Origin: Mitsuokella multacida DSM 20544
Lineage (GTDB): Bacteria > Bacillota > Negativicutes > Selenomonadales > Selenomonadaceae
Length of the DNA: 64,000 nt
Reading direction: 5' to 3'
NCBI RefSeq assembly: GCF_000155955.1
Contig: NZ_GG697141.2
Location: forward strand, 1,264,588-1,328,587
Within the stretch, counting starts at the first letter, position 1. Each line of letters starts with the position of its first letter. The position numbers were made by a program, and so were the translations under genes. The notes beneath the pieces are model-generated. The model saw only the letters and a program-made list of their open reading frames with translations, was not told the DNA's origin and did not search any database. Positions 779 to 54,547 of the stretch are shown here, in pieces.

Positions 779-1243
779 ATGTTTTTTTCTTCCATCTATG
801 CAAAGCAGCAGAGCGTCGCGCTGCCGGCGGCCATTGAGAAAGTGCTGGACTATCTGAAGGCGCATGACTTCACGAAGATGGAGCCGGGACGCTATGAGAT
901 CCAGGGCGATGATATCTTTGCGCAGGTCTTTGATGCAGCGACGAAGCCGGCTGAGGAGCAGCGCCCCGAAGCTCACGAGAAGTATGCGGACGTCCAGTTC
1001 CTCGCCTCGGGCAGGGAGCGCCTCGGCTTCACGCCGGACACGGGCAGCTATGAGGTCGATGAGCGCTTCGATGACCGCGACCTGATCTTCTACAAGAAGG
1101 TGGAGAACGAGTGCTTCATCGAAGCGCGTCCGGGCTGCTACAGCGTCTTCTTTCCCGAAGACATCCACCGTCCGGCCTGCGCATCGGGTCAGCCCATGAC
1201 CGTGCGCAAGGTCGTCGTCAAGATTAGCGTGAAGCTGCTCTGA
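779..1243 (+). CDS. YhcH/YjgK/YiaL (TabA/NanQ-like) family protein
   Basis: A 154-residue cytosolic protein of the DUF386 beta-sandwich family, whose characterised members include NanQ (sialic acid anomerase) and TabA. Family hallmarks are the segment EKYADVQFLASGRERLGF and the C-terminal cupin-like motif FFPEDIHRP, which carries metal-ligand candidates Glu and His. The start is ATG 779, with AGGAGGG six bases upstream; earlier in-frame starts lack a Shine-Dalgarno. It is a single-gene unit ending in a strong hairpin. No sialic-acid genes are nearby, so the substrate is unknown. Confidence 0.85.
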   Translation: MFFSSIYAKQQSVALPAAIEKVLDYLKAHDFTKMEPGRYEIQGDDIFAQVFDAATKPAEEQRPEAHEKYADVQFLASGRERLGFTPDTGSYEVDERFDDRDLIFYKKVENECFIEARPGCYSVFFPEDIHRPACASGQPMTVRKVVVKISVKLL

Positions 1244-1264: not shown

Positions 1265-1300
1265 AAAAAAGGTGATTGACCGTCGGTCAATCACCTTTTT
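1265..1300. terminator. Bidirectional terminator
   Basis: GGTGATTGACC pairs with GGTCAATCACC (1271-1281 and 1285-1295), with A and T runs on either side. It separates the YhcH-type gene from the convergent MFS gene. Confidence 0.9.
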
Positions 1301-1329: not shown

Positions 1330-2679
1330 TTACGCCTCGACTTCTTCGACTTTGACATCAGCTGCGTGGTCGGCGGCGAAGACGTCTTTGCGCTGGCCGT
1401 TGAGCTTGTACTGGATGGTCAGGACGAGCAGGCCGGAGACGAGCATGGCAGCGCCCATGATGTAGTAGCCGGCGGCGAAGGAGCCCGTGTTGACTTTGAC
1501 CCAGGCCATCATGTTCGGGCCAACCCAGCCGCCGAGGTTGCCGCAGGAGTTGATCAGGGCAACGGAACCAGCTGCTGCAGGACCCGTGAGGAAAGTTGTC
1601 GGGATCGTCCACCAGACGCCCATAGCGGCATGGATGCCGATAGCGGAGAGGCAGACGAGTGCGAGGGCGACGGGCAGGCTCTGTGCGAACGGGGAGAGGC
1701 CGAGGCCGATGGCGCCGACGAAGAGCGTGCAGGCGACGTGCCAGACTTTATCACCGGTCTTCGTGGCCGTCTTGCTGATGACGAGCTGGACGAGCAGTGC
1801 GGCCGTCATCGGGATGGCGATAGCGCCGCCGAGCAGCGAGGTCGAGAGGCCGGAGAGTTCTTTGAGCACGGTCGGCATCCAGAAGTAGAAGCCCCAGAAA
1901 CCGACGACCCAGAGGAAGTAGATGAGGCAGAGCTTGAGGACTTTCGGATCATGGAAGGCCTGGAGAACCGTGTATTTCTTGCGGGACTGCATGGCAGCCT
2001 GCTCTTTGTTGAAGTTGTCCGTCAGGTACGCTTTCTCGGCATCCGTAAGCCAGCCAACCTGGTCCGGGCGATCCTTGACGCAGAAGAAGAAGAAAACGGC
2101 GAAGGCGAGAGCCGGGATAGCTTCGAGGATGAAGAGTTCCTGCCAGCCGTGCATGCCGAAGAAGGAACTCTCGAGCAGCACGCCGGCAAGCGGTGCGCCG
2201 ATGATGTTCGAGAGCAGCAGCGACGTCAGCATGAGGCTCGTGGCACGGGCGCGCTCACCAGCCGTGAACCAGCGCGGGAAGAGCACGGAGTAGATGACCG
2301 GATAGAGGCTGGCTTCCGAAGCACCCAGCAGGAAGCGGCAGAGGAAGAACTGGAACTCGGTCGTGACGAACGCCATGAAGATGCAGACGAGGCCCCAGGT
2401 GAACATGATGCGCGCGATCCACTTCGTCGCGGAGAAATGCGAGGCGACGAGCGAGCCCGGAATCTCGAAAATCAAGTAGCCGACGAAGAAGATGCCGGCG
2501 CCCATGCCGAAGACCTCCGGCGTGATCCACGGCAGATCGGCCGTCATCGTGAGCTTGGCATAGGCGAGGTTGACGCGGTCGATGCAGGCGATGATCGAGA
2601 CGAGGAAGACCGGCAGGACGATGCGCCAGTCGCATACTCGTTTGAGACGGGCAAGATCGACGTTTGCTACTTGTTCCAT
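1330..2679 (-). CDS. MFS carrier, anion:cation symporter (ACS) family
   Basis: A 449-residue inner-membrane protein with 12 predicted helices. The ACS signature RFLLGASEASLYPVIYS follows helix 4, and the first loop contains IDRVNLAYA, as in hexuronate, galactonate, tartrate and phthalate carriers. The start is ATG 2679 with CTGGAGGT upstream. The gene is monocistronic and sits about 60 bp behind a T-box terminator, so expression should respond to uncharged tRNA. That is unusual for an ACS carrier, whose known substrates are organic acids, and suggests an amino acid or a 2-keto/hydroxy-acid relative. The substrate cannot be read from sequence. Confidence 0.85.
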   Translation of the reverse strand: MEQVANVDLARLKRVCDWRIVLPVFLVSIIACIDRVNLAYAKLTMTADLPWITPEVFGMGAGIFFVGYLIFEIPGSLVASHFSATKWIARIMFTWGLVCIFMAFVTTEFQFFLCRFLLGASEASLYPVIYSVLFPRWFTAGERARATSLMLTSLLLSNIIGAPLAGVLLESSFFGMHGWQELFILEAIPALAFAVFFFFCVKDRPDQVGWLTDAEKAYLTDNFNKEQAAMQSRKKYTVLQAFHDPKVLKLCLIYFLWVVGFWGFYFWMPTVLKELSGLSTSLLGGAIAIPMTAALLVQLVISKTATKTGDKVWHVACTLFVGAIGLGLSPFAQSLPVALALVCLSAIGIHAAMGVWWTIPTTFLTGPAAAGSVALINSCGNLGGWVGPNMMAWVKVNTGSFAAGYYIMGAAMLVSGLLVLTIQYKLNGQRKDVFAADHAADVKVEEVEA

Positions 2680-2739
2680 AATGATACCTCCAGGATGTAA
2701 TGAGATGAATGAAAGCAGTCACAGGGTTGATTTATTGAA

Positions 2740-3051
2740 AATAAAAAATCCGTCCCTCTGAAAGGGACGGATTGGATTTCCGCGTTACCACCCAAGTTCC
2801 GTGCAAAAGCACGACGCTCTGACGTACTCAGGCATCCGTAAGGTTCACGACGTACCATCATACGCGGCTCCTGTAACGGGGAGCATCCGTGGCCGCTTAC
2901 TTTGGGTTCAGCGCCATGCCTCGAGGATGATTTTCGACTTCCTGCTCATCACCGGCTTTCACCATACCCGGCTCGCTATGCATCAGCGACGGAAGTGTAC
3001 TCTTTCCTGTCTTCGGCTGTGTTCGTTATGTGAACTGTTGTTTTGTTTACG
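2740..3051 (-). promoter_or_regulatory. T-box riboswitch controlling the MFS carrier
   Basis: Read on the minus strand, the leader has a Stem I region (GACAGGAAAGAGTA, then AGCGAGCCGGGTATGG), a specifier-loop candidate (GAAAATCATCCTCGAG), the T-box core TGGGTGGTAACGCGG (about 2780-2795) and a terminator (stem 2747-2757 with 2763-2773, followed by TTTTTTA). The specifier reads most naturally as AUC, Ile. The antiterminator bulge UGGU would pair with discriminator base A, which fits tRNA-Ile. The specifier register is my inference; the T-box itself is clear. Confidence 0.88.
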
Positions 3052-3057
3052 GGTATT

Positions 3058-3086
3058 ATCATAGCGCTCGTGTGTAATGTTGTCAA
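3058..3086 (-). promoter_or_regulatory. Promoter of the T-box/MFS unit
   Basis: TTGACA (3081-3086), 17-bp spacer, TATGAT (3058-3063) on the minus strand. Predicted start is near 3051, immediately before the T-box leader. Confidence 0.85.
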
Positions 3087-3239: not shown

Positions 3240-4922
<1,683 letters not shown>

Positions 4923-5200: not shown

Positions 5201-5467
5201 ATGACTCAGGAAACGATTACGATTGAAAACAAGACTGGTATCCACGCTCGCCCGGCTTCCATCTTCGTTCAGACGGCTACGAAGTTCAAGTCCAAGATCC
5301 AGCTGCAGGCTAAGGGCAAGACGATCGATGCTAAGAGCATCCTCATGATCATGAGCATGGGCCTCGTCAAGGGCACGGAAGTCACGATCATCGCTGATGG
5401 CCCGGATGAAGCAGAGGCAGTCAAGGCTCTGAAGGATCTCATCGAGTCCAAGTTCGGCGAGGAATAA
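5201..5467 (+). CDS. ptsH: Phosphocarrier protein HPr
   Basis: An 88-residue soluble PTS phosphocarrier that takes phosphate from enzyme I and passes it to sugar-specific IIA domains. The active-site motif GIHARPAS gives His15, and KSILMIMSMG gives Ser46, the site used by HPr kinase in Gram-positive bacteria. The start follows GGAGAGG at proper spacing. It heads the ptsH-ptsI operon under a sigma-54 promoter, which is uncommon for general PTS genes and implies control by the HPr-like activator just upstream. Confidence 0.97.
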   Translation: MTQETITIENKTGIHARPASIFVQTATKFKSKIQLQAKGKTIDAKSILMIMSMGLVKGTEVTIIADGPDEAEAVKALKDLIESKFGEE

Positions 5468-5545: not shown

Positions 5546-5599
5546 ATCCGTGCAGGGAAATGCACGCGAATGCAGGGAATTTTTCAGGGGGAAAGCAAA

Positions 5600-7315
5600 A
5601 TGGCAGAAATCATTCGTGGTAAAGGCGTCATCTCCGGTATCGCCATGGGCAAGATCATGCTCGCGGGCCAGAATCTCGATGGCTACCTCGTCAACTACGA
5701 GCCGGAAGACAAAGAGACGGAGAAGAAGAAGGCACAGGATGCGCTGACGGCCGTCGCCGAGATCCTGCGCGAGAGCATCGAGAAGCTCAAGAGCAAGGAC
5801 ATGAAGGAGCAGGCCGCCATCATGGAAGCACATCGCATGATGGTACAGGACCCGATGATGGCCGACAACATCATGGCCAAGATCGAGGAGCTCGGCAATG
5901 CGCCGAAGGCTGTCCTCAAGGCTGCTGAAGAGCAGGCTGTCATGTTCGAGCAGATGGAAGACGAGTACTTCGCTGCCCGCGCCGTCGACCTCCGCGATGT
6001 CGGCAAGCGCGTTGCCAAGTACATCCTCGGCGTCAAGGAGCCGGAAATCGGCGACGAGAAGGTCATCCTCTGCGGCCGCGAGATCGAGCCGTCGGTCATC
6101 GCTGGCATGGAGACGGAGAAGATCGCAGGTGTCCTGCTCGGCTCGGGCAGCACGACGGCCCATGCTGTCATCATCGCGAAGGCACGCGCTATCCCGACGA
6201 TCGTCGGCCTCAACAAGGAAGACCGCATCGACCGCATCGCAGATGGCGACCATGTCATCATGGATGGCGAGCGCGGCGAGATCGTCGTCAACCCGGCACC
6301 GGAGGACATCGCGAGCTACGACGAGAAGATCAAGAAGCAGAAGGAACTCGCTGCTCACTACGCAGCACTCAAGGACCTGCCGGCCGTCACGACGGATGGC
6401 GTCAAGGTCGACCTCATGGCCAACATCGGCACGCACATGGACGTCGACAACGCGCTGAACTACGGTGCTGAGGGCGTCGGCCTGTTCCGCTCCGAGTTCG
6501 TCTTCATGGGCCGTCAGGACATCCCGACGGAGGAAGATCAGTTCAAGGCCTACAAAGAGGCCATCGAGAAGTGCAAGGGCAAGCTCTGCGTCATCCGCAC
6601 GATGGACATCGGCGGCGACAAGCCGCTGCCGTACCTCAACATCCCGGAGGAGGAGAACCCGTTCCTCGGTTACCGCGCCGTCCGCATCAGCCTGCAGCGC
6701 CGCGACCTCTTCCTGCCGCAGCTCAAGGCCATCCTGCGCGCTGGCGTCTACGGCAAGGCAGCCATCATGATCCCGATGATCATCAACGTGGCCGAGTTCA
6801 AGAAGGTCAAGGAGTTCATCGAGGAAGCGAAACTCGAGCTCGCGCATGAGGGCAAGGCATACTCCGATGATGTCCAGGTCGGCATCATGGTCGAGACGCC
6901 GGCAGCTGCCATCATGACGCCGGTACTCGCCAAGTACGTCGACTTCTTCTCCATCGGCACGAACGACCTCGTTCAGTACACGCTGGCAGTCGACCGCGGC
7001 AACGCGAACATCTCCTATCTCTACAACCACTTCAACCCGGCTGTGCTGCGCCTCGTCCAGCGCACAATCTCGAGCGCTCGTGAGAACGGCATCTGGGCCG
7101 GCATGTGCGGCGAGATGGCCTCGGATCCGAACGCCGCTGTCCTGCTCATGGCCATGGGCATCAGCGAGCTCTCGATGAGCGCACCGTCGATCCCGCGCGT
7201 CAAAGAGAAGATCCGCTCCATCAGCTCCGTCAAGGCCAAGGAAATCCTGGCTGACGTCATGGCGATGGAAGACGGCGACGACATCCGCAACTATCTCCAG
7301 AAAATCCTCGGCTGA
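5600..7315 (+). CDS. ptsI: PTS enzyme I (phosphoenolpyruvate-protein phosphotransferase)
   Basis: A 571-residue cytoplasmic enzyme that autophosphorylates from PEP and transfers phosphate to HPr. The phospho-His domain contains GSGSTTAHAVIIAKARAIP, with the active His in STTAHA, and the C-terminal PEP-binding barrel has FRSEFVFM, MIPMI and the catalytic-Cys segment WAGMCGEMASDP. The start is ATG 5600 behind CAGGGGGAAAG; an in-frame upstream start at 5570 has no ribosome site. It is second in the operon, 132 bp after ptsH, and is followed by a terminator. Confidence 0.97.
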   Translation: MAEIIRGKGVISGIAMGKIMLAGQNLDGYLVNYEPEDKETEKKKAQDALTAVAEILRESIEKLKSKDMKEQAAIMEAHRMMVQDPMMADNIMAKIEELGNAPKAVLKAAEEQAVMFEQMEDEYFAARAVDLRDVGKRVAKYILGVKEPEIGDEKVILCGREIEPSVIAGMETEKIAGVLLGSGSTTAHAVIIAKARAIPTIVGLNKEDRIDRIADGDHVIMDGERGEIVVNPAPEDIASYDEKIKKQKELAAHYAALKDLPAVTTDGVKVDLMANIGTHMDVDNALNYGAEGVGLFRSEFVFMGRQDIPTEEDQFKAYKEAIEKCKGKLCVIRTMDIGGDKPLPYLNIPEEENPFLGYRAVRISLQRRDLFLPQLKAILRAGVYGKAAIMIPMIINVAEFKKVKEFIEEAKLELAHEGKAYSDDVQVGIMVETPAAAIMTPVLAKYVDFFSIGTNDLVQYTLAVDRGNANISYLYNHFNPAVLRLVQRTISSARENGIWAGMCGEMASDPNAAVLLMAMGISELSMSAPSIPRVKEKIRSISSVKAKEILADVMAMEDGDDIRNYLQKILG

Positions 7316-54317: not shown

Positions 54318-54547
54318 TATACGCGAAGAGGGACTGCAAACCTTGCGCAGCAATCCCTCTTCAAAGCAGGGGTCCAGGGTGCCGTTCGCTTTAAATGCCT
54401 AAAACCTGCGGCTAGCAGGTGGGTGCCTTAAGTCCGGTTTCTGCAGTCGCCGAGGCGGGCATCTGCCGGAATCAAATCAAGCTCCCTAGGAAAAATGTAG
54501 GTTAGACACTTCTAAAGCTCACGCACATCCCAGGCTTGTCCTTCTTT
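54318..54547 (-). ncRNA. Probable 6S RNA (SsrS)
   Basis: A stand-alone minus-strand RNA with a consensus promoter and no reading frame. The 5' segment CCTGGGATGTGC can pair with the 3' segment GCACCCTGG, closing a long rod with a central open region. An inner arm, CACCTGCTAGCCGCAGGTTTT, and ACTTAAGGCACC resemble 6S RNAs of other bacteria. The final hairpin GAAGAGGGA/TCCCTCTTC (about 54326-54364) precedes the terminator. 6S binds sigma-70 holoenzyme as a promoter mimic. Ends and identity are inferred from structure; SRP and RNase P RNAs were ruled out by missing core motifs. Confidence 0.6.

Follow-up and report, generated by a model that had tools for sequence, protein, structure and literature searches.

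A T-box leader of the isoleucine type precedes a single gene for an SLC17/ACS-type carrier in the gut bacterium Mitsuokella multacida, and the same pairing recurs in Clostridium and in a third lineage. Computation established the leader together with its specificity and conservation and its repeated pairing with this group of carriers, and the sequence evidence indicates that the carrier probably imports raw material for isoleucine synthesis. The explanation as a whole, which includes both control by tRNA-Ile and a 2-oxo acid as substrate, is one that we regard as evenly balanced between right and wrong. The features are collected in Table 1, with positions counted in the window, which is the whole stretch of 64,000 nucleotides that was analysed.

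Table 1. Features of the leader and carrier unit of M. multacida
Feature	Position	Strand	Basis
Sigma-70 promoter, TTGACA-17-TATGAT	3086-3058	-	11/12 consensus matches
T-box leader, class I, isoleucine type	3022-2760	-	Infernal, RF00230
Specifier codon AUC	2931-2929	-	Rfam alignment, internal controls, invariance in orthologues
Antiterminator with UGGU bulge, core GGGTGGTAACGCGG	2792-2760	-	Rfam alignment; discriminator A of tRNA-Ile
Intrinsic terminator, overlapping the antiterminator	2773-2747	-	stem of 12 pairs before a T run
Carrier gene, 449-aa SLC17/ACS-type MFS protein	2679-1330	-	
Inverted repeat flanked on either side by T runs	~1269-1300		read from the sequence

The preliminary description had placed a T-box core, a terminator and a promoter within positions 1330-3086, and each of these elements was recovered. 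The leader matches RF00230 over its full length (1-219) with 109.2 bits and an E value of 3.3e-23, which is above the gathering score of 93 bits, and in the control for the promoter scan shuffled sequences average 0.6 sites. Antiterminator and terminator have the segment CCGUCCC in common when read from the sequence. Since the sequence that forms the left arm of the terminator also forms the right arm in the antiterminator, the two folds are mutually exclusive. By its RF00230 score, the match of AUC to the tRNA, the match of UGGU to ACCA and the competing terminator, the leader has the sequence features of a T-box and is an ordinary member of that family. The carrier had been described as the only gene downstream, and its ORF is indeed the sole gene of the transcription unit. 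A convergent gene (782-1243, plus strand) lies beyond the 3' end of this unit, and the inverted repeat listed in Table 1 is likely a terminator that both share. Among other features of the window are a 6S RNA (54367-54539, minus strand, 55.5 bits) and an ORF at 3240-4922 (plus strand) whose 560-aa product combines an HPr-like domain (PF00381) at the N-terminus with PAS, sigma-54 AAA and HTH domains. The latter ORF is just upstream of an HPr-like ORF (5201-5467) that is followed by a PTS enzyme I-like ORF (5570-7315), and we read its product as an HPr-fused sigma-54 activator beside ptsHI-like genes.

In the Rfam alignment the specifier of the carrier leader is AUC in the context GAA-A-AUC-AUCC, and the leader of the genome's ileS gene has the matching local context GAA-A-AUC-A. 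The genome contains a tRNA-Ile(GAU) with discriminator A that fits this specifier and whose A-CCA end is complementary to the UGGU of the bulge. The rule used to locate the specifier was checked on the 12 other T-boxes that Infernal found in the same genome, the genes behind which we named from their sequences, and in all 12 it returned the codon expected from the downstream gene. These codons were AUC for ileS, CUC for leuS and leuA, GUC for valS, UGC for cysE-cysS, ACC for thrS, UGG for the trp operon and trpS, UCC for serA, UUC for pheS, GGC for glyQ and UAC for aroF. The alternative specifier frames AAU and UCA are ruled out by the same rule. Thus the earlier assignment to isoleucine, made from a candidate AUC and from a bulge base U opposite discriminator A, has stood up to testing on both counts, and from these sequence features it is nearly certain that the T-box is isoleucine-responsive. 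Only ileS and the carrier have isoleucine T-boxes among the 13 T-boxes found in this genome. At 55 bits the ileS T-box (locus L013, 1501-1718) scores below the other 12, and its antiterminator core, GGUGGUUAUCC, is unusual.

The carrier is present at 70% identity or more in over 30 of 150 related genomes. When 30 orthologue loci from Selenomonadaceae and Megasphaera were scanned with Infernal, all 30 had a T-box leader upstream of the carrier, and AUC was invariant in every one while the remaining leader sequence drifts. Retention of the leader in 30 orthologues is far beyond chance, and this comparison of T-box/carrier pairs across Negativicutes, which the preliminary description had proposed, strengthens the link to isoleucine. 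Additionally, at least one compensatory change is found in 29 of the 49 consensus pairs among 16 leaders, and a terminator follows the leader in all 46 related leaders tested, those of Clostridium included. Named genomes of Mitsuokella, Selenomonas, Pectinatus, Megamonas and Megasphaera have a T-box motif with AUC at 41 of 42 loci, the sole exception being Selenomonas artemidis, where neither such a motif nor an Infernal match was found. The nearest named genome is that of Mitsuokella jalaludinii, with a carrier that is 95% identical. In a further genome (G329, locus L208, 2960-3904) only a T-box remnant without Stem I is present upstream of the carrier, and an intact AUC T-box (130 bits) in the opposite direction precedes a flavodoxin-like ORF.

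Homologues with 48-50% identity in five Clostridium species each lie behind an AUC T-box of 105-123 bits, two further genomes of the Clostridium order also have a T-box before the homologue, and so does, again with AUC, a homologue in another Negativicutes family. Many relatives that fall between these clades, among them Veillonella, Spirochaetota and Verrucomicrobiota, have no T-box. On a maximum-likelihood protein tree, well-supported branches force the T-box label to change at least three times, and each change could be a gain or a loss as far as the tree alone can tell. The carrier T-box of C. ljungdahlii shares 87% identity over 270 nt with the T-box of ilvA in the same genome, which also reads AUC, while the next best of the 30 T-boxes compared reaches 73% and the Negativicutes carrier T-boxes reach at most 73%. 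The gene ilvA encodes threonine dehydratase, which catalyses the first step from threonine to isoleucine. This 87% likeness is evidence, at the level of sequence, for a local origin of the Clostridium carrier T-box. A joint T-box tree of two genomes has mostly weak branches, and the only firm one groups the Clostridium carrier and ilvA leaders. In Clostridium sp. cel8 the gene order is T-box, carrier, ilvA, with the ilvA start 4 nt inside the carrier gene and its product scoring 490.7 bits against TIGR01127 (cut-off 378.75); among the genomes examined, this adjacency was found in Clostridium sp. cel8 only. Taken as sequence evidence, these observations argue strongly for a link of the carrier with isoleucine.

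The family scan of the carrier gave a match to MFS_1, and the best family match was the ACS-type model TIGR00893 with 239.1 bits, below its curated cut-off of 395; the HpaX model scored 188 bits, below a cut-off of 615. The predicted structure (pLDDT 85.5) has sialin, DgoT and VGLUT2 as its top Foldseek matches. A second aligner scored SLC37A4 and other MFS chains equally high, so that the fold alone is no proof of the SLC17 family. The residues involved in proton coupling, carboxylate binding and sugar contacts have been described for DgoT (PMC6532931, PMC10149257), and with the published numbering, which is the database numbering plus 15, the proton-coupling and carboxylate residues of DgoT are kept in the carrier, throughout the T-box clades and in their relatives (D46 as D34, R47 as R35, Y79 as Y68, R126 as R115, E133 as E122 and N393 as N377). 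Of these, D34, R35, Y68, R115 and E122 are invariant across the aligned relatives. The contacts of DgoT to sugar hydroxyls are lost (Q164 to L154, Q264 to Y254, S370 to G354), and its carboxylate contact Y44 is replaced by C. This pattern would suit proton-coupled transport of a carboxylate that is small and less polar, although the pocket changes are common to T-box-free relatives and are therefore not specific to an isoleucine precursor. A sugar-acid carrier was rejected on the loss of Q164, Q264 and S370 and on the TIGR00893 score. The ACS-family assignment of the preliminary description thus survives testing, on residues and fold, with family models that remain below their curated cut-offs.

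We propose that when isoleucine is short, the anticodon of uncharged tRNA-Ile(GAU) would pair with the AUC specifier and the 3' ACCA end of the tRNA would pair with the UGGU bulge, thereby stabilising the antiterminator. The overlapping terminator would then be kept from forming and RNA polymerase would read into the carrier gene. This antitermination by tRNA is taken over from the known T-box mechanism. The carrier, as an SLC17-type and presumably proton-coupled protein, would take up a small monocarboxylate that feeds isoleucine synthesis, and the likeliest substrate may be a 2-oxo acid such as 2-oxobutyrate or 3-methyl-2-oxopentanoate. It is residues and gene context that suggest the direction of uptake, the proton coupling and the substrate class. 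A more far-reaching version, namely that the carrier serves specifically to import a 2-oxo acid precursor of isoleucine and that tRNA-Ile leaders were placed before it independently in three lineages, is possible, and we advance it only tentatively.

The metabolic setting bears on these proposals. The genome encodes ilvA, ilvC and two BrnQ-type carriers, and since both ilvA and ilvC are present, isoleucine is expected to be made from threonine. Judged by its genes, the organism is probably no isoleucine auxotroph; an auxotroph that scavenges isoleucine would run counter to the presence of ilvA and ilvC. The same presence means that the gain from importing a precursor is not obvious. BrnQ was found in 16 of 19 genomes with the carrier versus 19 of 37 without it, in a hand count over the 56 same-genus and same-family genomes common to both listings, and these numbers do not support the idea that the carrier stands in for BrnQ. 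It looks like a supplement that is turned on at isoleucine shortage and is not the only source. Its neighbour genes in Selenomonadaceae are variable and give no hint of a substrate. T-box-free relatives from Megasphaera, Colibacter and others are located in operons with genes for E1, E2 and E3 of the pyruvate- or acetoin-dehydrogenase type, an arrangement that fits short 2-oxo acids without proving them and could instead serve pyruvate or acetoin. T-box-free homologues lie in or beside E1, E2, E3 operons at four loci (L109, L116, L117, L122) and in or beside an operon with lipA- and lplA-like genes at another (L210).

The preliminary description had suggested a transporter for a branched-chain amino acid or keto-acid. 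The keto-acid half of this suggestion is favoured by the sequence evidence, and the amino acid appears the weaker choice because the carboxylate and proton residues of SLC17 are kept, two BrnQ carriers exist and, in one Clostridium, the carrier gene is coupled to ilvA. Uptake of an amino acid under the same isoleucine T-box, either isoleucine or the ilvA substrate threonine, is nevertheless the next reading in rank, and we judge it unlikely. T-box-controlled transporters usually carry the amino acid that is sensed (PMC2494555), the VGLUTs show, by carrying glutamate, that the SLC17 fold is compatible with amino acids, and in the one genome with adjacent genes it is threonine that ilvA consumes. 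Weighing against these points, the conserved Arg/Tyr carboxylate site and the acidic proton-coupling residues match carriers of organic anions, the two BrnQ-type carriers are already available, and a threonine carrier would be expected to show control by threonine and not by isoleucine.

Third in rank is uptake of 2-methylbutyrate or a related branched fatty acid, from which anaerobes would make isoleucine by reductive carboxylation, a conversion that requires a 2-oxoacid:ferredoxin oxidoreductase. Some rumen anaerobes use 2-methylbutyrate as a carbon source specifically for isoleucine, and a single carboxylate on an aliphatic body would suit the pocket changes. We consider this improbable, as undissociated short fatty acids pass membranes without a carrier and the link seen in Clostridium is to ilvA, which belongs to another route. 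It is slightly less probable still that the carrier exports, or that it carries something unconnected with isoleucine and acquired the T-box by chance. Direction cannot be read from sequence and there are exporters among MFS carriers, but three separated clades have the AUC T-box, which in Clostridium shares an origin or an operon with ilvA, and induction by shortage favours uptake over export. Finally, some bacteria make isoleucine by way of citramalate and Veillonella relatives lie near citrate-lyase-like genes, but uptake of citramalate or another dicarboxylate of that route is very improbable, given that the ilvA route is present and the Veillonella homologues have no T-box. No citramalate synthase (TIGR00977) was found in this genome or in any genome listed from the same family, and a citramalate route to isoleucine was rejected on the absence of cimA. 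The Veillonella homologues (L101-L108; ~58% identity) also lie near genes for a cupin and a LysR-type regulator, all named from their sequences.

Through its regulation in three separate clades, a carrier family that is usually filed under sugar acids becomes tied to the supply of isoleucine. Dozens of genes that family searches place no closer than a generic MFS or galactonate-transporter model gain from this a single substrate class that can be tested. They come from bacteria of the rumen and gut as well as from acetogens, Clostridium ljungdahlii among them. Should a 2-oxo acid be the substrate, this would uncover a scavenging of amino-acid precursors that tRNA charging controls directly. 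In the portion of the open-access literature that was covered, we came across no description of an isoleucine T-box that controls a carrier of the ACS/SLC17 type; the available texts on T-boxes in Negativicutes, Selenomonas and C. ljungdahlii, and those on MFS carriers with isoleucine and threonine dehydratase, likewise contained no report of the pairing. It may be that T-box databases, for example TBDB (PMC7778990), contain these leaders as uncommented entries. Isoleucine-precursor 2-oxo acids are possibly a new substrate class, as we did not find them described for bacterial SLC17/ACS carriers.

The leader shares its specifier, bulge, switch architecture and matching tRNA with known class I isoleucine T-boxes (RF00230), such as those before ileS, and differs from them in that it controls an ACS/SLC17-type carrier. 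Seven families of T-box-controlled transporters have been described, with the MFS entry assigned to lysine and an ABC transporter as the one for isoleucine (PMC2494555). BrnQ (LIVCS) carriers under T-box control follow the same logic of expression when branched-chain aminoacyl-tRNA is uncharged, but belong to another protein family, and the two BrnQ-type genes of this genome are not directly behind any of its 13 T-boxes. With the D-galactonate:H+ symporter DgoT of E. coli the carrier shares its fold (VIA Z 42.4 over 390 residues) and the six conserved residues given above, while it differs in overall sequence (~20% identity) and at the positions of Q164, Q264, S370 and Y44.
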